The position numbers and the translations under genes were made by a program. A stretch of 56,956 nucleotides of DNA from positions 1 through 56,956 of the forward strand of contig REEG01000067.1 in NCBI GenBank assembly GCA_007695195.1, written 5' to 3'. Positions within the stretch are counted from its first letter, which is position 1; each line of letters opens with the position of its first letter. The DNA comes from Gemmatimonadales bacterium. Its GTDB lineage: Bacteria; Gemmatimonadota; Gemmatimonadetes; Longimicrobiales; Gaopeijiaceae. Positions 1 through 12,110 of the stretch are shown one piece after another. Below the pieces are notes generated by a model. That model did no database searches. It was given only the letters and a program-made list of their open reading frames with translations, and was not told the DNA's origin.

Positions 1-152
1 CTGACAGGAACCATTCCTTGAGGGGAATCCCCAGTGGCCCGGGGGTGGTCAAGCCCCCGTTGGTGGGAGGCCACCGTTGACGGGAGGCCGCCTCCGTTCT
101 CCCGAGCCGCTTCTTACCCAGGCCTGCCCAGCGGGCTGAAGCCTCGCCCATG
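1..152 (-). CDS. possible leftward gene, N-terminus only, cut by window edge
   Basis: An open frame runs leftward from an ATG at 152 to the window edge with no stop in about 50 codons and a GC-rich third position. Its last visible residues read GPLGIPLKEWFLS. I do not recognise the product. An in-frame TAA lies just upstream of the ATG, so the start is at or downstream of 152. No Shine-Dalgarno is visible, because the bases before the ATG are a T-rich arm of the palindrome at 155-178. If real, this gene would be the obvious target of that palindrome. The fragment is too short to exclude a chance open frame. Confidence 0.3.
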
Positions 153-154
153 AA

Positions 155-178
155 AAATTAGAACCGGGATTCTAATTT
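155..178. promoter_or_regulatory. perfect 9-bp inverted repeat, candidate regulator operator (copy 1)
   Basis: The sequence reads AAATTAGAA, six bases, then TTCTAATTT: a perfect 9+9 palindrome that is AT-rich in a very GC-rich background. A near-identical copy with the same 6-bp spacer lies at 438-460. Size and symmetry fit a dimeric winged-helix regulator. The Rrf2-family gene at 896-1402 is the nearest candidate, which is an inference. Confidence 0.6.
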
Positions 179-895
179 CGGGTTTCCCGCCTCCGTACGT
201 GCAGGTGACTGGTGGTTGTGGAGCTGAGGGCATGGGGGATGTGGGGAACGCGGGACCGACCGCGGCGACTGGGATCACCGGAGATGAGGGGCCGGCGGCT
301 CCGTGCAGACTTCTGGTTCACATCCGGGAGAAATCCTTCACGGACGTGCCGAGGGAAGCGAGGCAGCCATTCCCAACCCCCACCTGGACCCGGTTCCCAG
401 TGCGCCCTCTCCTCCCTCCTGCCTCTCCCCTCCCGCAAAATTAGAATCCACGTTCTATTTCTGCGGCGAGTAGCGCCGAGGACGAGGAAACGGACTGGTC
501 TGGCACGCACGAAGGGCCATCGTAGCACCGTGGCGGGGCTCCGGAGGGTCCTCCACCCCGGTGGGTGGGGCATTTGCTGAGGTTCTGATCACACGAATTG
601 CGGGCCCTCAGCGTTTGTTCTGGGTCGCTGTTGGTGCCGCGCGCACCTCCTCGGGACCTCCCCAGCACTTCCCCAAATGCGAGGCGGAAGGTGATGCTCC
701 ATGGGGACCCGCCGCCAACACGATCCCGGAACAAAGTCCCAAGGGTGCACTTGAGGTACGCCCGGAGATGTCTCGAATATCTGGAGTCCAGCATGCACTC
801 GAGGTGCGAGAGGATGGGGAGGGCCGGGAGCGGGCCGGGGCCGCTCAGTGGAGCGCTGCGGAAGGACTGGAGGGTCGGTCCGGGAGACGATCCGT
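179..895. other. about 700 bp without a supportable gene
   Basis: Several open frames of 80-200 codons cross this stretch on both strands, but they overlap each other, have Arg/Pro/Gly/Ser-rich translations and match no family I recognise. The only clear structure is the second palindrome at 438-460. The region may be a long regulatory intergenic stretch or the remains of a decayed gene. Confidence 0.5.
438..460. promoter_or_regulatory. near-perfect inverted repeat, candidate regulator operator (copy 2)
   Basis: The sequence reads AAATTAGAA, six bases, then TTCTATTT. It differs from copy 1 at 155-178 only by one missing A in the right arm and in the spacer bases. The same arm sequence and spacer length 283 bp away argue for a shared binding protein. 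Confidence 0.55.
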
Positions 896-1402
896 TCAGG
901 AGGCGCCGCCCGCGCCCTCGACCCTTCCATCATTCTGGCGTGGCAGGAGCGTTGCCGATGGGTCGGTCTCCATCCTGTCCGGCTGCTTTCGCTCCACCGC
1001 TGCCGCCATGGACTCAAGAGTGGTGGACTCCAGATACCGGCGGATCCCTTCCCGGATGGGCTTCCACGTCTCATGGAGAGGGCAGGGAGAGGTATCGGAG
1101 CACACCGCCAGTCCCACGGCGCACGACTCCAGATCGGCTGATCCATCCATGGCGTGACGGATCTCGAAGAGGCTGATCTCCGCCGGCGGGCGCTGCAGAT
1201 AATACCCACCGGTGGGGCCCCGGGCCGAGCCCAGGATGCCAGCATCCACAAGCCGGGTGAGGATGGTGGAGAGGAATGGGGAGGGGAGACCCTCCGCCTC
1301 GGCGATATCGCGAAGCTTGACCATTTCCGGCGAGTCCCTGTACCGACGGGCAAGATGGGTCGCGGCGCGGATTGCGTATTCGCAGGCGGAGGAATAGATC
1401 AT
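896..1402 (-). CDS. Rrf2-family transcriptional regulator, probable Fe-S sensor
   Basis: A 168-residue protein with an N-terminal winged helix-turn-helix (about residues 1-65, beginning MIYSSACEYAIRA) typical of the Rrf2/IscR/NsrR family. Three cysteines, C94, C101 and C107, sit where Fe-S Rrf2 proteins bind their cluster; the spacing is X6 and X5, slightly wider than the X5/X5 of IscR. An ATG 13 codons upstream (1441) is also in frame, but family N-termini begin at the Met used here. The upstream strand has a TTGACA-like hexamer and a TAATTT half-site resembling the palindromes at 155 and 438, so autoregulation is possible. It would sense nitric oxide, iron-sulfur status or redox; the sequence does not say which. 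Confidence 0.85.
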   Translation of the reverse strand: MIYSSACEYAIRAATHLARRYRDSPEMVKLRDIAEAEGLPSPFLSTILTRLVDAGILGSARGPTGGYYLQRPPAEISLFEIRHAMDGSADLESCAVGLAVCSDTSPCPLHETWKPIREGIRRYLESTTLESMAAAVERKQPDRMETDPSATLLPRQNDGRVEGAGGAS

Positions 1403-1802
1403 GCGTTCGGCGCAGTCCGAAGTGGGGAAGAAGGAGGGCAAGAATGGTCAAGGGGTGAACCTTCAGCGGAGCAGGAACACGCCGTCCCTCCATTAAAGTG
1501 TCAAATTAGGCATTGCCGGCCGCCCGCGCCACCTCGTAGTCTGTGCGTGCCTGGTGGCCACAGGTGATGCACACGTCCTGCAGGGCGGTGGGGACGCGGG
1601 GAGGTTGGGGTCAGGCTTCAGAGGCGCGTCCCCTTCGCTCCACTGGAGGGAGAGTGTCCCTACCGCTCATTGGAGTCTTTGCGAAAGGAAACCCATGATG
1701 GAGATACCCCGGCAAGAGCGTGGGGACATTCTCTAGTTTGGCATGGAAATTCCGGGAAATGGGGAGAGAGGCCGGGATCTCCCCTCCAACGCAGGAGTTT
1801 TC
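1403..1802. other. intergenic region between Rrf2 gene and radical SAM operon
   Basis: About 400 bp between divergently transcribed genes, with no convincing coding frame. It should hold both promoters. On the minus strand TTGACA at about 1502-1507 could be a -35 for the Rrf2 gene. On the plus strand an AGGAG lies a few bases before the ATG at 1803. Confidence 0.5.
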
Positions 1803-2849
1803 ATGCTCGATCCGCAACTGGAGCGAATCGCCCGTACCCTGGGCCCAAGCCGCTTCCCCAGGAAGCTGGCCCTGGAACTCTGCGCCGACTGCAACCTGGC
1901 GTGCTCCATGTGCCATCATCCGGAGATGCGCCGACCCAAGGGCGTGATGCCCTTCCTCCTCTGGAAGAAGTGTGCGGATGAAGTGGCCCGGGTCGATCCG
2001 GACACGGAGGTCTGGTTCTCCTTCTGCGGGGAGCCCCTCATGGAGCCGGATCTCCTGGTCGCCTTCCTCCGCTACGGCAGGCAGGTGGGGCTGCGTTCGT
2101 TGAACGTGAATACCAATGGTCAACTCCTGGTGCCTGAGGTCGCCGGTCCGCTCCTGACCAGTGGGGTGGGGACCATCGTCATCGGCATCGACGGATTCTC
2201 GAGCCCCGTGTACGCCTCGGTCCGGGTGAACGGTGATCGGGACGTGGTCTACCGGAATGTTGAGCATCTTCTCGAACTCCGCCGGGCCATGGACGACGGC
2301 CCGGAGATCCAGGTTCAGTTCATCGAGATGGACGAGAATGAGCATGAGATGCGGGCCTTCGCCGAGTACTGGCTCGAGCGCGGCGCCACCGTGAAGGTCA
2401 GGAACAAGCTCAGTTGGGGAGGGCGACTGGACACCCCGGCCCATCAGGCGGCGGACGACCGCATCCCCTGCCCGTGGGCCCTCACCATGATGCACGTGTT
2501 CTGGGATGGACGGGTCCCTCGCTGTTCCGGCGACGTGGAGGGCGAAGACTTCCAGGACAACGCGTGGCACGCTCCCCTCACCGAGATCTGGGGGCGTCTG
2601 GCCCCCTACCGGCAACTCCATCTGGACCGGCGGTTCGACGAGCTTCCTGATCGCTGCCACGACTGCCGGGACTGGATGAGCGGAGCCGCCGAGCGCGTCC
2701 GGGATGGCCAGTTGGACCGACTGGAGCGCCGTCGCCGGAAGCGCCCCCTTCCCGTGCCGGTGTCCGGCGCAGGGCGAGCGCTGGTCTCCGTCAAGTCGCC
2801 TCCGTCCCAGATCGTCCGGCGTGCCGACGTGCGACCACCTGCGCCATGA
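1803..2849 (+). CDS. radical SAM protein with C-terminal SPASM-like cysteines
   Basis: A 348-residue radical SAM enzyme. The cluster motif CNLACSMC (C30, C34, C37) would bind the [4Fe-4S] that cleaves S-adenosylmethionine. A GEPL motif and a typical (beta-alpha) core follow. The C-terminal third has further cysteines (IPCPWAL, PRCSGD, CHDC) of the SPASM/twitch type, which bind auxiliary clusters in peptide- and sugar-modifying enzymes. The ATG at 1803 has AGGAG just upstream and is preferred to an in-frame ATG at 1743. The stop overlaps the next ATG (ATGA), so it is coupled to an acyltransferase/carrier fusion. The substrate is unknown; a carrier-bound or sugar-nucleotide intermediate is an inference from the neighbour. 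Confidence 0.85.
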   Translation: MLDPQLERIARTLGPSRFPRKLALELCADCNLACSMCHHPEMRRPKGVMPFLLWKKCADEVARVDPDTEVWFSFCGEPLMEPDLLVAFLRYGRQVGLRSLNVNTNGQLLVPEVAGPLLTSGVGTIVIGIDGFSSPVYASVRVNGDRDVVYRNVEHLLELRRAMDDGPEIQVQFIEMDENEHEMRAFAEYWLERGATVKVRNKLSWGGRLDTPAHQAADDRIPCPWALTMMHVFWDGRVPRCSGDVEGEDFQDNAWHAPLTEIWGRLAPYRQLHLDRRFDELPDRCHDCRDWMSGAAERVRDGQLDRLERRRRKRPLPVPVSGAGRALVSVKSPPSQIVRRADVRPPAP

Positions 2850-3898
2850 ACTCGTCCATTGGGGTCCGTTCTTCGGCGGGAACCGGTCCGTCCCCAACCC
2901 TCTACCTGTGTGGAGCCGGAAACCCGGAAGGGGTGCGGCTGGCACTCAGGTTGGCCCGGAGCACCGGTCGGTGGAGTCGGCTGGCCCTCCTGGATGACGA
3001 TCCCAAGCTCCTTGGGGTGCGGAAGGTGGGTGTGGCGGTGGAGGGCCCCTTCTCCCACCTGGCCTCGGTGGACCGGGCCCGGGCCGAGGTGGTGAGCCTG
3101 GTGGCTCGCACCACCAGAGGCCGTGCCGACGTGGCTGCCCGGATCGAGGAGTGGGGGATCCCCTGGACCGGGCTGGTGAGCTCCGATGTGGACCTTTGGG
3201 GCGCCCAGACGGCGCCGGACTTGGTGGTCTATCAGAACGCCACCATTGGACCCGAGGCTCGAATCGAACCGGGGTGCGTGGTGTTCATGGGCGCGGCGGT
3301 GGGCCATGGCTCCCGGCTTGGGAGGCACTGTGTGGTGGGGGCAAACGCCGTCCTCAACGCCCGGGTTCGTATCGGTGACCGGGTCTACGTGGGAACCAAC
3401 GCCACCATCCTCCCGGAAGTCACCGTGGGAGACGATGTGACCATCGGTGCCGGGGTCACGGTGGTGGATGATGTCCCGGCCGGCGCCACCGTCTTCGCCG
3501 AGCCCGCCCGGGTGGTGGAAGGGCGCCGGGGAACCGATGGACCATCATACCCCTTCGCCGAGCCCGCCCTGTCCGAGCCCGCCCTGTCCGGGCTTGAGCG
3601 GGAGATGGCGGAGATCTGGGGTGCGGTACTGGATCTGGATCAGGTGCCCAAGGAGGCCAACTTCTTCGATCTGGGAGGGACGAGCCTCGCCGCGCTCCGG
3701 ATCGTGGGTCGAGCCAACGAACGTTTCGGACCGGTGCTCTGTCCGGTGGATCTGTTCGAATTCTCCACTGTACGGACCCTGACCAGGAAGGTGGCCGGTG
3801 GTGGGTCCTCGGCATCGGTGGGGGCAGGGGAGCTGGGGTCGGCCCAGCGGAGGGGCGACGCACGGCGCCGGATCCTGTCCCGCACTCCCCTCCGCTGA
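2846..3898 (+). CDS. NeuD/PglD-like acyltransferase fused to a phosphopantetheine carrier domain
   Basis: A 350-residue protein with three parts. Residues about 18-105 resemble the Rossmann-like N-terminal domain of NeuD/PglD sugar O/N-acetyltransferases. Residues about 118-225 are a left-handed beta-helix of hexapeptide repeats with a candidate catalytic His at H154. A linker with a tandem EPALS repeat (FAEPALSEPALSG) leads to a carrier-protein domain at about 248-320, whose FFDLGGTSL motif puts the phosphopantetheine serine at S280. The last 30 residues are basic. Translation is coupled to the upstream radical SAM gene by a 4-base overlap. The fusion suggests an acyl or aminoacyl group held on the carrier is moved by the beta-helix enzyme; no adenylation or thioesterase gene is nearby. 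Confidence 0.8.
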   Translation: MNSSIGVRSSAGTGPSPTLYLCGAGNPEGVRLALRLARSTGRWSRLALLDDDPKLLGVRKVGVAVEGPFSHLASVDRARAEVVSLVARTTRGRADVAARIEEWGIPWTGLVSSDVDLWGAQTAPDLVVYQNATIGPEARIEPGCVVFMGAAVGHGSRLGRHCVVGANAVLNARVRIGDRVYVGTNATILPEVTVGDDVTIGAGVTVVDDVPAGATVFAEPARVVEGRRGTDGPSYPFAEPALSEPALSGLEREMAEIWGAVLDLDQVPKEANFFDLGGTSLAALRIVGRANERFGPVLCPVDLFEFSTVRTLTRKVAGGGSSASVGAGELGSAQRRGDARRRILSRTPLR

Positions 3899-3916
3899 GG
3901 TCCCGAAGGGCAACGA

Positions 3917-5476
3917 CTAGGCGCCGGCCAGTACCCGGGCGACGCCGTCCCGTCGGGGGTCCCCGGCCCCGGCCCACCCTCGGGTTGACCGCTCCACCAG
4001 GTGGACGCCACCGAAGAAGAGGTTGTACCCGTCCCAGGCCCGACTCTCCGACCAGATGGCGGTGAGGGTCTCCAGTACCTCCGGTGAGAATCCCCCTTCG
4101 ATCTCAAGCTGCCGGCCTTCCACGTGGAGGCGCGGGAGAGCCACGGCTTCCTCCGCAGTCAGCCCCTCTTCCACCAGGGCGGCAGCCACCTGGAGGATGG
4201 CGGAGCGGATGCGGTTCGATCCCCCCGATCCCAGAACCACCAGACGCTCCTCATCCAGGGCCGCTCCCTCCTGTCCCACCAGGATGGAGGGAGCCATCAT
4301 GGAGGTGAGGCGGGTATCGGTGGGCCACCGCCCGAACCCCGCTGGTTGAAGGTCCTCTTCGCCGAGCATGTTGTTCAGCATGGCCCCCACCCCCGGGATC
4401 AGCCGGCCGCACCCCTCCCCATTGCTCGCGGTGAGGGCTGCGGCATTTCCCCATCGATCCAGAATGCTGATGTGGGTCGTCCCGCTCCGACCGGGGGCGT
4501 AGGCGGCGAGGACGTTCCGGTACCGCTGGATGAGATCGGTGCTCAGGACCCGTCGGTGGGCATCGACAGGTACCTCGGACTCCAGGTTTTCCCGACGCCG
4601 GGCGAGCCGCATGGCCTCAAGGGTCGCGGCGATACGCGCCGCTCGGGCCGGTGGGGTGGAAGGGGGCTGGTCCTCATCCAGGAGCGCCAACCCGAACGCC
4701 ACCAGGAGCCCTCCGGACGAGGGGGGTGGGTTGGTGAGGAATCGATGGTCCCGGAAGGATATCTCCAGGGGGCGTCGGACCTGCACCTGGTACGACTCCA
4801 GGTCGCTCCGGCGGAGGTGCCCACCCCCGCTCCGGGCCAACGCATCCAGAGACGCGGAGATCTCGCCACGGTAGAAGAGGTCCGGCCCCTCCAGAGCCAG
4901 CACATCCATGAAGTCGCCCAGCTCACGGAGAGGGTGGATGTCCCCCTGGTCAAGGAGCCGACCCTCCTGGCTGAACAGGGCCTCCACTTCGGGGGTGTCC
5001 ACCAGGATGGGGAGGAGCACCCGGGCCAGGCGGGCCTGCAGTTCATTGACCCGGACCCCCTCCCTGGCCATGCGCCGCGCCGGCTGCACCACGTCGGCCA
5101 TGGACATGCGGCCCAGTTCGTCCAGGATCCGAAAGGCTCCGGCGGGGAGCCCGGGTACCGCCGCTGCGCCCAACCCGATGTGGAAAGCCTGTCGGGCCGA
5201 GCCGAAGTCCGCCTCGATCTTGCGAAAATCCTCCTGATCCGGCCCGAGTCGCCGACCCGGTGTCTGACAGAAGAAGTCGTAGACCCGGGTCGGACCGGTC
5301 TCGGGCCGGGCCAGGAGGAAGCCGCCTCCACCGGGAGACACGAGCAGCGGTTCCGCCACACACGCGGCCCAGAGCGCCGCTACGACGGCGTCATAGGCAT
5401 TCCCCCCCGCTCTCAGGACCTCCTCGGCCGCCTCGAGGGTGGCTGGATGGCCGCACGCCACGGCCCCCTGGATCAT
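3917..5476 (-). CDS. ggt: gamma-glutamyltransferase family protein
   Basis: A 519-residue member of the Ntn-hydrolase gamma-glutamyltranspeptidase family, which cleaves or transfers the gamma-glutamyl group of glutathione and related amides. The autoprocessing motif GTTHISI places the nucleophile at T333, splitting a large N-terminal and a small C-terminal subunit of normal proportions. The glycine-rich GSGGSN segment lies in the small subunit. Unlike classical periplasmic GGTs it starts directly in the mature fold (MIQGAVACGH) without a visible signal peptide, so it may be cytoplasmic or its start may be misjudged. It follows the sugar dehydrogenase gene by 18 bp on the same strand and converges with the acyltransferase gene. 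Confidence 0.9.
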   Translation of the reverse strand: MIQGAVACGHPATLEAAEEVLRAGGNAYDAVVAALWAACVAEPLLVSPGGGGFLLARPETGPTRVYDFFCQTPGRRLGPDQEDFRKIEADFGSARQAFHIGLGAAAVPGLPAGAFRILDELGRMSMADVVQPARRMAREGVRVNELQARLARVLLPILVDTPEVEALFSQEGRLLDQGDIHPLRELGDFMDVLALEGPDLFYRGEISASLDALARSGGGHLRRSDLESYQVQVRRPLEISFRDHRFLTNPPPSSGGLLVAFGLALLDEDQPPSTPPARAARIAATLEAMRLARRRENLESEVPVDAHRRVLSTDLIQRYRNVLAAYAPGRSGTTHISILDRWGNAAALTASNGEGCGRLIPGVGAMLNNMLGEEDLQPAGFGRWPTDTRLTSMMAPSILVGQEGAALDEERLVVLGSGGSNRIRSAILQVAAALVEEGLTAEEAVALPRLHVEGRQLEIEGGFSPEVLETLTAIWSESRAWDGYNLFFGGVHLVERSTRGWAGAGDPRRDGVARVLAGA

Positions 5477-5494
5477 GGGCCGGCCCCGGGGAGG

Positions 5495-6724
5495 TCAGTC
5501 CTGATCGGCAGGCTCCATGCGCAGGATGGGCGTCGGCTCACCAACCCGGTCTTCCATCACCAGGTAGATGAGGCCGTCCGGTCCCTGGCGCACGTCCCGG
5601 ATGCGGCCCTGCTCCGGCACCAGGGTCTCCACGGTGACGGCCCGTCCATCCACCACCCGGACGCGGGAGAGCTGCTGGCCCGCGAGCCCACCACTGAAGA
5701 AGTCACCCTGCCAGCGGGGGAAGGCGTCGCCGGTGTAGATCATGAGCCCCGATGTAGCAATGGAGGGCGTCCAGTGATGGACGGGATCTTCCATCCCCTG
5801 CATCCGCACCGCCTCGTGGATGGGGGTACCCGGGCCGTAGTTCACGCCGAACCCCACCACCGGCCATCCGTAATTGACCCCGGGCTTGATGAGGTTGAGC
5901 TCATCACCGCCCTGGGGGCCGTGCTCGTTCTGCCACACCTCATTGGTCTCGGGGTGAATCGCCATCCCCTGGGCGTTCCGATGTCCCCAACTCCAGATCT
6001 CCGGAAGGACCCCTTCCTCACCCACGAAGGGATTGTCCGCCGGCACGCCACCATCGTCATGGATCCGGAGGGTGGTCCCGATGTGATCGGCGGGATCCTG
6101 CGCCGGATGCGCTTCCAGGTCGCCGACGGGGCGGACCTGCCGATCGCCTACCGTCACGAAGAGGTAGCCGTCGGCGTCGAAGGCGAGCCGTGAGCCATGG
6201 TGACCCCGTCCCTCGACCCAGGCTTCGGCTATCAGGATATCCTCCACATCGTGGAGGGCATCGTTCTCGAGCCGCCCCCGGGCCACGGCGGTGGTGCCCA
6301 TGGAGTCGTCATCGTTGGGCTTGGAGTAGCTCAGGTAGACGAACTGGTTGGTCTCGAAGTCCGGGTGCAGGATCACGTCCAGCAGTCCGCCCTGTCCTCC
6401 GACCCGGATGGTGGGAAGGCCTGGAACCGGATCCGGGAGGAGTCGGCCGTCCCGGACGATCCTCAACTGTCCGGGGCGCCCGTCCGGTGCCCGTTCGCCG
6501 CGTTCGGTCACCAGCATGTCTCCGCCGGGGAGGAAGGCCAGGGCCCAGGGGTGCTGGAGCCCGTCCACCACGGTGGCCAGGCGATAGGCGTGATGTTCGG
6601 ACTGGAAAACGGTATCGCCGGTCTCACGGGCGGCCTCGGCATCGGGCGTCTCACAGGCCGAAAGAAGGAGAGCACCGGCCAGGGCAAGGGTCACTGCAGG
6701 GAGTCTGCGGGCGTGTGAAGACAT
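5495..6724 (-). CDS. PQQ-dependent sugar dehydrogenase, lipoprotein (soluble aldose dehydrogenase family)
   Basis: A 409-residue protein with a lipoprotein signal peptide ending LLLSAC, so Cys24 should be lipidated and the protein anchored in the periplasm or outer membrane. The mature part is a six-bladed propeller of the glucose/sorbosone dehydrogenase (YliI/Asd) family, with motifs such as HPWALAFLPGG near the start, an HGSRLAFD segment and a WSWGHRNAQG segment. These enzymes oxidise aldoses with pyrroloquinoline quinone. It is the first gene of a short leftward pair with ggt. A GAGAAG purine stretch precedes the ATG. Confidence 0.88.
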   Translation of the reverse strand: MSSHARRLPAVTLALAGALLLSACETPDAEAARETGDTVFQSEHHAYRLATVVDGLQHPWALAFLPGGDMLVTERGERAPDGRPGQLRIVRDGRLLPDPVPGLPTIRVGGQGGLLDVILHPDFETNQFVYLSYSKPNDDDSMGTTAVARGRLENDALHDVEDILIAEAWVEGRGHHGSRLAFDADGYLFVTVGDRQVRPVGDLEAHPAQDPADHIGTTLRIHDDGGVPADNPFVGEEGVLPEIWSWGHRNAQGMAIHPETNEVWQNEHGPQGGDELNLIKPGVNYGWPVVGFGVNYGPGTPIHEAVRMQGMEDPVHHWTPSIATSGLMIYTGDAFPRWQGDFFSGGLAGQQLSRVRVVDGRAVTVETLVPEQGRIRDVRQGPDGLIYLVMEDRVGEPTPILRMEPADQD

Positions 6725-6925
6725 GGGCTTCTCAGGTTCCGGGTCGGGTAGGTGGTTTCAGATTGAAATGATGGCGGGCTGGAGCGGTTTGCGAAAGGGA
6801 TTGAGGCTCCATCCAGCACAATGAGGGCATTCGAGATTGCCGACCCCCGGTGCCCCTCCTACCTTCCACTACACCTTTCGCGAGGCGCCGTATCGGGATT
6901 CCTCCAACCCCTACCCCGGGCTGCC

Positions 6926-7705
6926 ATGCAACGACCTCACCTGTATTTCACCGCCATTCCCGAAACCCTCATCTACTCCATGCTTCCCCCGCAGGAGTTC
7001 GGGAAGTACCTCTCCATCGGCTCGCAGAAGCTGAAGAGCAATCAATCCATCTTCTTCGAGGTGGATCCGGAGTTCACCAGCCAGTACTTCCCCCTGGAGC
7101 AGGGCCTGGCCCGCTGTCGCCCCCACGCTGACGGGTCGACGCGACGCTCCACCTATGTCTCGGTCTACCGGGTGCTGGAGCACATCCCGGTCTCGGCCCT
7201 GGGGAGTCTGTTCCTCACCACGCGGGTGGGCCTCACATTGGAGTTGACCCGCGGAGACTACCACGGCGACCAGGATGACCGCCTCTACATGTTCCAGGAG
7301 CTTGCACCGGTCTTCCCCAAGGTCGCTAGCTCGCTGGGACCCCTGGGGTTCGCCCGACACGTCACCGATCCCACCCAGCCCGTAAGCATGCCCCGCATCG
7401 CCTTCGCCGACCTTCGCCTGGAGGGGTTGGCTCGGGACCCGGCCGGAGCCTCGGCCGATAACCTTCCCTACAGCGGGATCCCTCACATCCGGGAGACCCT
7501 TTCATCGCTCAAGCGGAGCCCTGAGAAGCGGACCAGGATCATCAATCGGGATATCCGGCAGGATATTCACTTCCCCCTCGTCGAGGGGGGATTCTACGTG
7601 GGAGACCAGACGGACTTCGCCTTCTACCCGATGCCGGAGGAAGACGTCCTCCGCCGGGAGAATACTTCCTGGTGGAACTCCGCGAGTCGGACCGCCACCC
7701 TGTAA
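6926..7705 (+). CDS. conserved hypothetical protein
   Basis: A 259-residue soluble protein with no signal peptide or membrane segment. I do not recognise the family. The start at 6926 (MQRPHLYFTAIPETL) is chosen because the 35 codons before it in the same frame are Pro/Arg-rich and low in coding character. It has many aromatic and charged residues and no cysteine cluster or nucleotide-binding loop. It lies 21 bp upstream of the pyrophosphatase on the same strand, so the two may be co-transcribed, and it is divergent from the sugar dehydrogenase. Confidence 0.75.
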   Translation: MQRPHLYFTAIPETLIYSMLPPQEFGKYLSIGSQKLKSNQSIFFEVDPEFTSQYFPLEQGLARCRPHADGSTRRSTYVSVYRVLEHIPVSALGSLFLTTRVGLTLELTRGDYHGDQDDRLYMFQELAPVFPKVASSLGPLGFARHVTDPTQPVSMPRIAFADLRLEGLARDPAGASADNLPYSGIPHIRETLSSLKRSPEKRTRIINRDIRQDIHFPLVEGGFYVGDQTDFAFYPMPEEDVLRRENTSWWNSASRTATL

Positions 7706-7726
7706 CCCAATGGAGACAGGCCTGCC

Positions 7727-9739
7727 ATGCAGACCGGATTGCCGCTCATCACGCCCATCGTGGGTCTCCTGGGCCTCGCCCTCGCCGCCCTCATCTTCCG
7801 CAATATCCTCAAAAAACCCGGTGGCGACGGGAACGTGGCCGACATCGCCGACCAGATCCACCGTGGAGCCATGGTGTTCATGCGTCGAGAGGCCAAGCTC
7901 CTGGTCATCTTCTCGGTGATCGTGGGCGGGCTCCTGGCGCTCTACCAGCCCTTCACTTCGGTGGCCTTCTTCCTGGGGGCGCTGGCCTCCGGGCTGGCGG
8001 GCTTCATCGGGATGTATACGGCCACCAAGTCCAACGTCCGGACCACACTGGCCGCCCACTACGAGGGGCCGGCCGCGGCCCTGACCACCGCCTTCCTGGG
8101 CGGATCCATCATGGGCCTCACCGTGGCCTCCATGGGGCTCCTGGGAGTGGGTGGGCTCTTCCTCTTCTTCGGTGAGACCGCCGAGGACGCCCACGTCATC
8201 GAAGGTTTCGCCATGGGTGCCTCCCTGGTGGCCATCTTCTACCGGGTCGGGGGCGGGATCTTCACCAAAGCCGCCGACGTAGGGGCCGACCTGGTGGGCA
8301 AGTTGGAGTCGGGGATCCCGGAAGACGACCCCCGGAACCCGGGCGTCATCGCCGACAACGTGGGGGACAATGTCGGCGACGTGGCCGGGATGGGGTCGGA
8401 TCTCTTCGAGTCCTACTGCAACGCCCAGATCGCCACCATTGCCATTGCAGCTACCCTGGCCGCCACCCAGCTGGTGGACCTGGGCGGTGACCGGGGGAAT
8501 CTCATGTACCTTCCCCTGGCCCTGACCACGGTAGGGCTGGTCTGTGCCGCGCTCGGGCTTCTCATCGTGAAGCTGGTGTCGTCCCAGGAGCCGGCCAAGG
8601 CGCTCCGGATCGGGACCATCGGCGCCGCCGTCCTCTTCATCGGGGCGGCCTTCGGGGTGATCACCTATCTGGATGTCTCCACCAACGTCTGGTTGGCCGT
8701 TCTGGTGGGGACCATCGGCGGCATCGGCATCGGCCTCTCCACCGAGTACTACACCGGCGGGAAGCCCATGCGGAGCATCGCCGCCTCGTCCCAGACCGGC
8801 GTGGCCACCGTCATGATCAGCGGGCTTTCGGTGGGACTCATGTCGGTGGTGATTCCGCTCCTGATCATTTCCGGGGTCATCATGGGTGCCAGCTATCTGG
8901 CCGGTCTCTATGGCGTGGGGATCGCGGCGGTGGGCATGCTGGCCACCATCGGCATCACCATGAGCATCGATGCCTACGGCCCCGTCGCCGACAACGCCGG
9001 CGGAATCGCCGAGATGGCGGGCTTCGGGGAAGCCACCCGGAAGATCACCGACTCCCTGGACGAGGTGGGGAACACTACGGCGGCCATCGGGAAGGGATTC
9101 GCCATCGGTGCCGCCTCCCTGGCGGCCCTGGCCATCATCGCCGCCTACATCAACACCATCACGGTGAGGGATCCGGATTTCCAGCTGCTCCTCTCCGATC
9201 CCCAGGTGTTGGTGGGGATGTTCCTGGGTGGGCTGACGCCCTTCCTGGTGGCCTCCATCACCATGACGGCGGTGGGAGACGCCGCCGGGGAGATGATCGA
9301 GGAGATCCGCAGGCAGTTCCGGGAGATCCCCGGACTCCTGGAGGGGACCGCCAAGCCCGACTCGGAACGGTGTGTGGAGATCGCCACCGATGCGGCGCTG
9401 AAGAAGATGATCCTCCCGGCACTCATCGCGGTTGGGTCGCCGGTTCTGGTGGGGTTCACCCTGGGGGCCACCATCCTCGGGGGAATGCTCGTGGGAACGC
9501 TCCTCGGGGCGGTGCTCCTGGCCCTCTTCATGGCCAACGCCGGAGGGGCCTGGGACAACGCCAAGAAGTTCGTGGAGCAGGGCAATTATGGAGGCAAGAA
9601 CTCCGATGCCCACAAGGCCACCGTGGTGGGGGACACGGTGGGGGATCCGCTGAAGGACACCTCCGGACCCTCCATGAACATTCTCATCAACGTCATGGCC
9701 ATCGTGTCGTTGGTCATTGCCCCCATGCTCCCCATCTGA
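7727..9739 (+). CDS. hppA: membrane-bound ion-translocating pyrophosphatase, K+-dependent type
   Basis: A 670-residue polytopic membrane protein that couples pyrophosphate hydrolysis to H+ or Na+ transport. The family's acidic pyrophosphate/Mg sites are present ([18 protein letters not shown], and DPLKDTSGP near the C-terminus). The potassium-determining segment reads [10 protein letters not shown] with A452 and G455, the K+-dependent signature, where K+-independent enzymes have Lys and Thr. TM6 contains LFESY, but I cannot tell an H+ pump from an Na+ pump by eye. It has the normal length for the family and is followed by a clear terminator. Confidence 0.95.
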
Positions 9740-9803
9740 CGGACAGCAGCGTCCCGCGGCGTTCAGGAGCGTCGCGGGGCGTCAACCTCCGGGAAAGGGT
9801 CTC

Positions 9804-9843
9804 CGGCCCCGTCGCTCCCTCCGGGCGGCGGGGCCGTTGTTTT
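9804..9843 (+). terminator. Rho-independent terminator after hppA
   Basis: An 8-bp GC stem (CGGCCCCG ... CGGGGCCG) with a 17-base loop is followed by TTGTTTT. It lies 65 bp after the hppA stop and separates it from the chemotaxis operon. Confidence 0.75.
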
Positions 9844-9927
9844 GTGCCTTCGCGGGAGCGCCCAAGCCGGCTGAAGTTGTTGACTACAGCATTCGTGAAC
9901 CCGGTCGATACCCCTATCAACGGTACC

Positions 9928-9943
9928 TGGGCCCTCATTTGCG
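9928..9943 (+). promoter_or_regulatory. weak sigma-54-type promoter candidate before the chemotaxis operon
   Basis: The sequence TGGGCCCTCATTTGC has GG and GC at the exact -24/-12 spacing and an intact TTGC, but mismatches in the -24 box. It lies about 90 bp before the MCP start. Confidence 0.25.
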
Positions 9944-10034
9944 GAATGGGTGGGGCCCCACCGCCCCCTGGGGTTGACGATACGCCGATCGAGACGGTGC
10001 GAGGCTTCCCCGTAAACGATACCGGAGTCCTTCC

Positions 10035-12110
10035 ATGCAATGGTTCCATGATCTGAAAATCCGGCCGAAGCTTCTCCTCTCCTTTGGGCTTATGATCGCC
10101 CTTGCGGTAATCCTGGGGGGAGTAGGCCTCTTTTCCCTGAAATCCGTCGACGAGGGCCTGGACGTGGTAGTGAACCGGGAACTCCCGGGCGCAGTGGCCG
10201 CTGTGGGGTTCCAGAACTACGTCCACACTGTCCAGCGCGATGTGCGGACGGGAATTCTTCTGGACGGTTCCGATACAGCCTGGCAGGAGAGCTTCCGTAC
10301 CTCCATGGACCAGGCCCAACGGGAGCTCGCCATCGTAGGTGGTGCCATGGTCTCCGACGAGGGGATCGCCATGCACGCCAATAGCGAGACCCTCTTCGCT
10401 CAGTGGCGTGTCCTGAACGAGCAGATCTTCGATCTGGCCGCCAGAACGCAGGGCGAAGCCGCCCTGGAGCTCCTCCTGTCCCCGGAGTTGGCGGCCATTG
10501 CCGGAGACCTTGACCAAATGGCCTACCAGATGGCCGAGTGGAAGACGACCTACGCGGCAGGCGTCGGCGCCGATGGCCTCGCGACCTCCCAGCGTGCGTC
10601 TCTCATGGTCGTGGTGGTGCTGGGGTTCGCCGTCCTCCTGGGTCTCGGCCTTGCCTGGTGGCTCTCGGGCCTCATGGCCACCCAGATCCGGGAGTGCGGA
10701 GAACGGGCCGAATCCCTGCGGGCGGTCTGCATCACCGGGCTCGAAGGCGGAATCACCGCCCTGTCCCGCGGTGATCTGACCCAGGACGTCATCCCCAAGA
10801 CCCAGCCTCTTCAGATCCTGGGCAAGGACGAACTCGGTCAGCTGGCCGGGACCGTGAACGGGATGATCACCCAGGTGAAGCAGGCCATCACCTCCTATGA
10901 CACCTGCCGGGTCCAGATCCAGGCCATGGTGGACGACAGCGCCGGCCTGGCGGAAGCCGCCGTGGAGGGGCGCCTCAGCACCAGGGCGGACGCCGCTCGC
11001 CATCACGGGGACTTCCAGAGGATCGTCCAGGGCATCAACGATACCCTCGACGCCGTTCTCGATCCCATCGACGAGGCCGCCGCCGCGCTGGACCGGGTCG
11101 CCCAGCGCGACTTCACCGTTCAGGTGACGGGCGATTACCGAGGCGACCACGCCAAGATCAAGGACTCCCTCAACACCGCCGTCTCCGAGGTCCGTTCGGC
11201 GCTCCAGACGCTGGCCCAGTCGGCCCATGCCCTGGCCGCCTCCAGCGAGGAACTCTCGGCGGTCTCCACCCAGATCGGCAGCAACTCCGAAGAGACCACG
11301 GCCCAGGCCGGGGTGGTCTCTGCGGCTGCCGAACAGGTTTCCAAGAACGTCCAGACCGTCTCCACGGGGACCGAAGAGATGTCGGCCTCCATCAAGGAGA
11401 TCGCCAAGAATGCTTCCGACGCCGCTCGCGTGGCAGGTCAGGCCGTGACCATGGCCGATAGCACCAATTCCACGGTGGGCAAGCTTGGTGACTCGTCGGC
11501 AGAGATCGGTGAGGTGGTGAAGACCATCACCGCCATTGCCCAGCAGACCAACATCCTGGCGCTGAATGCCACCATCGAGGCGGCTCGGGCCGGCGAGGCA
11601 GGGAAGGGCTTTGCCGTCGTGGCCAACGAGGTGAAGGAGCTGGCCAAGGAGACGGCCGAGGCCACCGAAGACATCGGTCGTAAGATCGAAGCCATCCAGG
11701 TGGACAGTCAGGGCGCCGTCTCGGCCATCCAGCAGATCGGGCAGATCATCACCCAGATCAACGACATCCAGACCACCATCGCCAGCGCGGTGGAAGAGCA
11801 GACCGCCACCACCAACGAGATCGGACGCAACGTCTCCGAGGCGGCGCAGGGAAGCACCGAGATCGCCCAGAACATCACGGGCGTGGCCGAGGCCGCCGGA
11901 CAGACGTCCGCCGGCGCACAGCAGGGTCAGCAGGCTTCCAGCGAACTGGCCCGGATGGCGGCTGAACTCCAGACCCTGGTGGGTCAGTTCAAGTTCGAGA
12001 CTGAGGCGGGAAGTGGGCGCGGGGTGGCGGCTACCGCCGCCGTCCCGGCCGGCGCCGGGAACGGGAAGTCGACGAACGGACGCGGGCATTCCAGCACCCG
12101 TCGGTTCTGA
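10035..12110 (+). CDS. methyl-accepting chemotaxis protein
   Basis: A 691-residue transmembrane chemoreceptor. TM1 spans about residues 13-35 and TM2 about 190-213, enclosing a four-helix-bundle-type periplasmic sensor. After TM2 there appear to be several HAMP-like segments in a row ([16 protein letters not shown] and RGDHAKIK regions, about 265-380). The coiled-coil signalling domain follows, with the conserved hairpin tip around [20 protein letters not shown] and [13 protein letters not shown]. There is no NWETF-type CheR tether at the C-terminus, which is Ser/Arg-rich. It is the first gene of the chemotaxis operon and lies 38 bp before cheA. The ligand is unknown. Confidence 0.93.

Follow-up and report, generated by a model that had tools for sequence, protein, structure and literature searches.

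A radical SAM protein paired with a carrier-linked NeuD-like acyltransferase in a gene pair conserved across bacterial phyla

Introduction

LpxA and LpxD are beta-helix acyltransferases that draw their acyl group from a carrier (acyl-ACP), and DesII, a radical SAM enzyme, acts on an amino-sugar nucleotide. For the PglD family, PMC8040287 describes trimers as the active form, an N-terminal domain that holds UDP as a UDP platform, an Asp-Asp among the UDP-sugar-binding residues, a histidine that is the most likely base and one proline that turns cis upon CoA binding. According to PMC9012708, BtrN oxidises 2-deoxy-scyllo-inosamine, an aminocyclitol, in a two-electron reaction, and four cysteines hold its auxiliary cluster.

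Here, we compare these systems with two genes of a Gemmatimonadales bacterium that encode a radical SAM protein and a transferase-carrier. The transferase resembles NeuD, PglD, PerB and VioB in its two-domain fold, its collinear alignment, a putative catalytic histidine (H154), a GVPA-type end and, as far as PglB goes, an Asp-Asp pair. Unlike them, it has a fused or coupled carrier, a near-invariant N171-A/S-R173, a score below the family cut-off and, wherever the locus could be checked, a radical SAM gene beside it. The likeness to LpxA and LpxD lies in a putatively carrier-fed beta-helix transferase, with a weaker sequence match; here, however, the carrier is an NRPS-type PCP in cis instead of a fatty-acid ACP in trans, and the N-terminal domain is PglD-like. 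As for the radical SAM protein, its best solved relative by both profile and Z score is BtrN, with which the four auxiliary cysteines align, whereas identity over the aligned fold is about 16% and, unlike BtrN and DesII, it is partnered with a transferase-carrier.

Results

The window, that is, the whole stretch of 56,956 nucleotides under analysis (contig REEG01000067.1), carried the features listed in Table 1. A sequence-only reading had assigned positions 1803-3898 to two genes, coding for a radical SAM protein and a NeuD-like transferase-carrier with S280 as attachment serine. This layout was right, with the transferase-carrier gene starting inside the end of the radical SAM gene (4-nt overlap), and both proteins were confirmed by Pfam, S280 sitting in LGGTSL. 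An AGGAG at 1793-1797 lies ahead of the radical SAM ATG, and this start was consistent with those of two homologues. The next gene downstream (3917-5476, opposite strand) may encode a gamma-glutamyltransferase, which it resembles by eye. Rfam gave no match within positions 1-12000 of the window and no sigma-70-like promoter was found between 1400 and 4000. Two copies of the palindrome TTAGAA-N6-TTCTAA, one exact and one with 1 mismatch, were located at 158-175 and 441-458, while none of 100 shuffles had two matches; as a pair they resemble repressor operators, placed upstream of the Rrf2/radical SAM region.

Table 1. Features of the locus, numbered from the first base of the window
Feature	Positions	Strand	Details
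Rrf2-family regulator gene, divergent, upstream of radical SAM gene	896..1441	-	PF02082 104.1 bits
Radical SAM gene	1803..2849	+	348 aa; ATG 1803; PF04055 49.4 bits
SAM-cluster cysteine codons (predicted)	C30 1890-1892; C34 1902-1904; C37 1911-1913	+	
NeuD/PglD-like left-handed beta-helix acyltransferase with C-terminal carrier	2846..3898	+	350 aa; ATG 2846
N-terminal Rossmann-like domain, about residues 18-105	2897..3160	+	AlphaFold pLDDT; D50-D51
Left-handed beta-helix, about residues 118-220	3197..3505	+	Hexapep; H154 codon 3305-3307
Carrier domain, residues 254-314, NRPS PCP type	3605..3787	+	PP-binding; S280 codon 3683-3685

The radical SAM protein matched Radical_SAM (PF04055) far above chance, the Pfam cut-off being 29.5 bits. 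Its CxxxCxxC motif (C30, C34 and C37) was present in all 28 covering rows of an alignment of 29 rows with a mean column identity of 63%, and these cysteines are predicted to bind the SAM cluster. Four auxiliary cysteines were likewise kept, C223 and C241 in 29 of 29 rows and C285 and C288 in 28 of 28 covering rows; they aligned with those of BtrN in a profile comparison whose second aligned stretch scored only 6.4 bits. Because these four cysteines are invariant, the auxiliary domain is predicted to be not a complete SPASM domain but a twitch-like, truncated one with a single auxiliary cluster, and SPASM PF13186 reached 20.8 bits, just below its Pfam cut-off of 21.5. The protein had been called SPASM-like, which held for the presence of auxiliary-cluster cysteines but not for a complete SPASM domain. 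Further invariant blocks were QFI.M, LSWG and W.DGR.PRC.GD. In sequence-profile comparison, BtrN scored best among solved relatives (9.2e-10). The structure model (mean pLDDT 77.8) gave VIA Z scores of 19.1 with BtrN, 18.6 with SuiB, 18.0 with DesII and 17.8 with both MoaA and ChlB, while Foldseek ranked DesII first. Since these are near-ties, within about 1.3 Z, the fold gives the twitch/SPASM class only and not the substrate.

Hexapep repeats in the transferase scored 63.6 bits, far above chance and above the Pfam cut-off of 27. TIGR03570 (NeuD_NnaD) was the best NCBIfam match, at 118.1 bits, and the transferase of another locus (L017) scored 134.5; both fall under the curated cut-off of 160.8, so we term the transferase NeuD-like and not a NeuD member. 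Its profile was collinear, nearly from end to end, with PerB, VioB and PglB. Foldseek comparison of the model returned 4m99 (2.9e-9, TM(target) 0.78) and PerB 4ea7 (0.81), pointing to the two-domain PglD fold, and the fold neighbours were the sugar N-acetyltransferases PglB, PerB, PglD and VioB. In the AlphaFold model, the N-terminal domain was well resolved (pLDDT 85-97 per 10-residue block, residues 11 to 110) and the beta-helix was the weakest folded part (53-67 per block, residues 151-220). H154, the equivalent of the most likely base of the PglD family, was invariant in 29 of 29 transferases and aligned with PerB H141, the residue that the depositors mutated to Asn and Ala (H141N and H141A, titles of 4eaa and 4eab). 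A single-sequence alignment had instead put A172 on the VioB histidine, as expected of a dead enzyme or a missing coil that had lost the catalytic histidine; this was ruled out by profile alignments, including that of a relative, together with the invariance of H154. D50 and D51 were also found in 29 of 29 sequences. They are collinear with the LDD of PglB; in PerB, an Ala stands opposite D51. The family signature N171-A/S-R173 was invariant or nearly so and proline P220 was near-invariant (at least 90% of rows), in an alignment whose mean identity, counted over every column and thus also over carrier and tails, was 29%.

The carrier domain matched PP-binding (PF00550) at 47.6 bits, far above chance and the Pfam cut-off of 20.8, and fused carriers were assigned to the NRPS-type PCPs by profile and fold comparison. 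Among 29 transferase sequences, two of which come from locus L028, 21 were fused to a carrier and all 21 kept the serine. The remaining eight were unfused. Specifically, the transferase of L024 runs off the contig end, the first copy of L028 has its carrier gene before the radical SAM gene, and in L017, L020, L021, L022, L026 and L033 a separate small carrier-like gene stands directly behind the transferase. The serine was present in all six of these separate carriers, five of them with Asp-Ser. As a set they gave weak ACP/DltC-type NCBIfam matches, one of them scanned against Pfam had no match at E <= 1e-2 (that is, 0.01), and profile comparison with 11 fused carriers and one other gave a probability of 30%. 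Thus, every copy with a complete locus has a predicted serine-bearing carrier, fused or adjoining, and two carrier types in the same functional slot argue that the carrier is needed.

Two further features of the carrier region were noted. In L030 (G060, 8935-10203) a second, degenerate carrier-like domain follows the first, with the serine replaced by proline (GGDPE). Most fused transferases end in a short arginine-rich tail after the carrier (e.g. RAEMRRRR; window 3790-3895, L036, L040), which could be a docking element.

We then considered the distribution of the pair. A species-level genome scan, queried with the radical SAM alignment alone by means of a pair of short peptide patterns derived from three Gemmatimonadota proteins, yielded 81 pattern stretches, of which 28 were relatives of the radical SAM protein (L016-L043), a lower bound given that a two-pattern scan misses remoter ones. 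Two of them, L016 and L030, are probably the same records as genomes G065 and G060. The 28 relatives came from at least seven phyla (Gemmatimonadota, Acidobacteriota, Planctomycetota, Latescibacterota, Myxococcota, Pseudomonadota and Thermodesulfobacteriota), and the strains carrying the cassette include Geobacter sp. AOG1, Hydrogenophaga pseudoflava, Litoreibacter arenae and Sulfidibacter corallicola. A transferase homologue lay directly downstream on the same strand in 27 of the 27 testable loci; in the 28th, L035, the contig ends inside the radical SAM gene. This adjacency was not built in, because the scan used the radical SAM protein only. Taking these 27 loci and the window, with starts chosen by script and gene calls made from composition and homology instead of curated annotation, the exact 4-nt overlap occurred in 14 of 28 pairs and the spacing ranged from -73 to +47 nt in 27, the other being L022 (+119). 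Divergence of the two proteins was correlated (mirror-tree r 0.85, n=27, 0 of 5000 permutations, a measure that ignores shared ancestry). In the radical SAM tree, built like the mirror-tree without L035 and L043, the Rhodobacteraceae formed one well-supported clade and most deep branches stayed open.

Closer to the source, 3 of 116 family genomes matched the transferase-carrier at E <= 1e-20, and five matched the radical SAM protein at the same threshold, namely the same three strongly and two 26%-identity relatives. Both genes were found in the same 3 of 395 phylum genomes. Neither turned up in four further genomes from the genus of the window, of which one is only 61% complete, so that the pair looks like an accessory cassette. 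Its patchy spread suggests horizontal transfers, with no specific one claimed. Plasmid and phage collections yielded a single plasmid match, at 29%, and no phage match, and so provided no evidence for mobility by these elements. Altogether, these alignments and locus comparisons show that the pair is conserved and co-inherited, with its predicted active-site and carrier residues intact.

Flanking genes vary greatly, so that no common end product could be read from the neighbourhood. Rrf2 genes adjoin the cassette in the window, L016, L030 and L023; all three family genomes that carry the cassette have one next door. CRP-family genes were near L021, L031 and L038. A VOC gene (methylmalonyl-CoA-epimerase-like) stood behind the carrier in L017, L021, L022, L026 and L033. 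A conserved divergent SDR of the nucleotide-sugar type was next door in four of eight Rhodobacteraceae loci (L036, L038, L039 and L040); among the others, the SDR of L042 is a different one, and the upstream sequence of L037 and of L043 is shorter than 500 bases. The locus of Geobacter sp. AOG1 (L028, 5985-12463) is an extended version of the cassette, in the order adenylation domain, carrier, radical SAM, transferase, formyltransferase and transferase-carrier-thioesterase, its adenylation domain scoring 330 bits, over the cut-off of TIGR01733. This locus is the best place to learn the chemistry of the pathway. Its DltA-like adenylation domain and carrier beside the cassette recall DltA/DltC and freestanding adenylation domain and carrier pairs, whereas over the stretches covered neither the window locus nor 27 of the 28 other loci showed such a pair.

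In the window's locus, neither a sugar gene nor an adenylation domain nor a loading enzyme was found. The source genome (96% complete) has six PP-binding matches, 15 AMP-binding matches and one PPTase-superfamily gene; the amino-acid adenylation model TIGR01733 gave 13 matches in it, none over the cut-off.

Two other carrier-containing regions of the source genome were observed. Contig C265 (L044, 12297-13889) encodes a luciferase-like monooxygenase of the MupA/Atu3671 family fused to a carrier (TIGR04020, 447 bits); this carrier is about 40% identical to that of the window's transferase, and an arginine-rich tail occurs here as well. The monooxygenase was matched in nine other family genomes, in open frames of 893-2120 aa. 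As an obligate partner of the cassette it was rejected, since relatives occur in 10 of 116 family genomes and in only two of the three with the cassette. On contig C30 (L065, 563-5805), an AMP-binding enzyme is followed by genes that by eye resemble pyruvate-dehydrogenase E1 alpha, E1 beta and a lipoyl-domain E2, and then by a carrier, a run of genes that is a possible 2-oxoacid-to-acyl-carrier route.

Discussion

For the sequence-only reading, a chance fusion that had lost S280, or genes never adjacent in other genomes, would have spoken against a small pathway built on a carrier-bound intermediate. The search found neither, with adjacency in every testable locus, the serine in all fused copies and a separate carrier behind the transferase in six unfused loci, and the same three results give good support to a conserved small pathway that involves a carrier. 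An intermediate of this pathway may actually be carrier-bound.

Somewhat short of an even chance, our preferred reading is a two-gene module in which a tethered (amino)acyl group would be transferred to the amine of a sugar-like acceptor, the same acceptor being radically modified by the radical SAM partner. As we infer the chemistry, a PPTase would prime S280 and an (amino)acyl group would be loaded onto the pantetheine arm of the carrier. The beta-helix domain, acting as a trimer and using H154 as its base, would then hand the acyl group to an amine on the acceptor, a nucleotide sugar or sugar-like molecule bound by the transferase's N-terminal domain. The twitch radical SAM partner would carry out a radical step on this acceptor, before or after acylation, which by analogy with BtrN or DesII may be a dehydrogenation or a deamination. 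The fused carrier would thereby replace free acetyl-CoA, making a less common acyl or aminoacyl group usable. This reading is supported by the adjacency (27/27), by the conservation of S280 (21/21) and of H154, D50 and D51 (29/29) and by the alignment of H154 with PerB H141; by the PglD-family features described in PMC8040287; by the sugar N-acetyltransferases among the fold neighbours and by BtrN and DesII among the nearest radical SAM structures; and by the NRPS-type carrier, the Geobacter locus, the Rhodobacteraceae SDR and the PPTase-superfamily gene in the genome. It is weakened because the locus has no sugar, adenylation or loading gene and the genome no match over the adenylation cut-off, and also by the fold near-ties, the missed NeuD cut-off, the low pLDDT of the beta-helix, the varied flanks and the Ala that faces D51 in PerB.

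We consider it rather unlikely, though a serious contender, that the radical SAM protein has its substrate on the carrier. An amino or other acid tethered to S280 would be modified while bound, and the beta-helix would either acylate its amine, from acetyl-CoA or another donor, or move the acid on, as in a miniature assembly line. Such a scheme would suit the single run of genes in Geobacter, from adenylation domain to thioesterase, the NRPS type of the fused carriers and the six loci in which radical SAM, transferase and separate carrier occur together, five of them with the VOC gene behind. However, an adenylation domain like that of Geobacter was found in only one of the 28 other loci, over the stretches covered, and none in the window locus, and the transferase keeps the nucleotide-sugar-type features of its N-terminal domain.

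It is improbable that the transferase is an ordinary acetyl-CoA-dependent sugar N-acetyltransferase whose carrier is a passenger or serves for protein contacts only. Its beta-helix relatives do use acetyl-CoA, and the near-invariant P220 sits where, according to PMC8040287, the PglD-family proline turns cis on CoA binding. Against this, all 21 fused and all 6 separate carriers have the serine, and the separate ones are of a different, DltC/ACP-like kind; carriers of at least two types have thus become associated with the transferase, which would not be expected of a passenger.

Finally, we find it very improbable that the radical SAM protein serves to mature a peptide or protein (RiPP or metalloenzyme), the transferase acting separately: its best NCBIfam matches are maturases (W_rSAM_matur 84.7, spiroSPASM 81.9 and rSAM_Geo_metal 70.2 bits) and SuiB and other RiPP enzymes are among its nearest folds, but these scores are far under the cut-offs (380 for TIGR04317, tungsten-cofactor maturase; 250 for TIGR04321, spiro-SPASM; 400 for rSAM_Geo_metal), the called neighbours of at least 70 aa showed no conserved gene for a small peptide and no common target gene, and CxxxCxxC begins at residue 30, which leaves no room for the long N-terminal extension that RiPP recognition domains need.

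In keeping with the earlier failure to recognise the pair as described, a search of an open-access full-text library, a scope outside which most subscription papers and all preprints fall, turned up no publication on NeuD-like/carrier fusions or on this gene pair. The Pbo cluster was considered as a description of the pair and set aside, since it is an NRPS/PKS cluster and the available part of PMC8473136 does not describe the pair. With low confidence, we put forward that these genes form an undescribed, phylum-spanning two-gene module around a shared pantetheine carrier, in which a beta-helix amide-forming transferase would take the role of an NRPS condensation domain and the radical step would act on a tethered or immediately adjacent intermediate.

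Being a compact two-gene unit present in named strains, the cassette is directly testable by knockout and metabolomics. If the preferred reading, transfer from the carrier to a sugar-like acceptor, is true, sugar N-acyltransferases of the NeuD fold would not be tied to acetyl-CoA, and one branch of this fold, with its own carrier and a radical SAM partner, could acylate amino sugars with amino acids or unusual acids.
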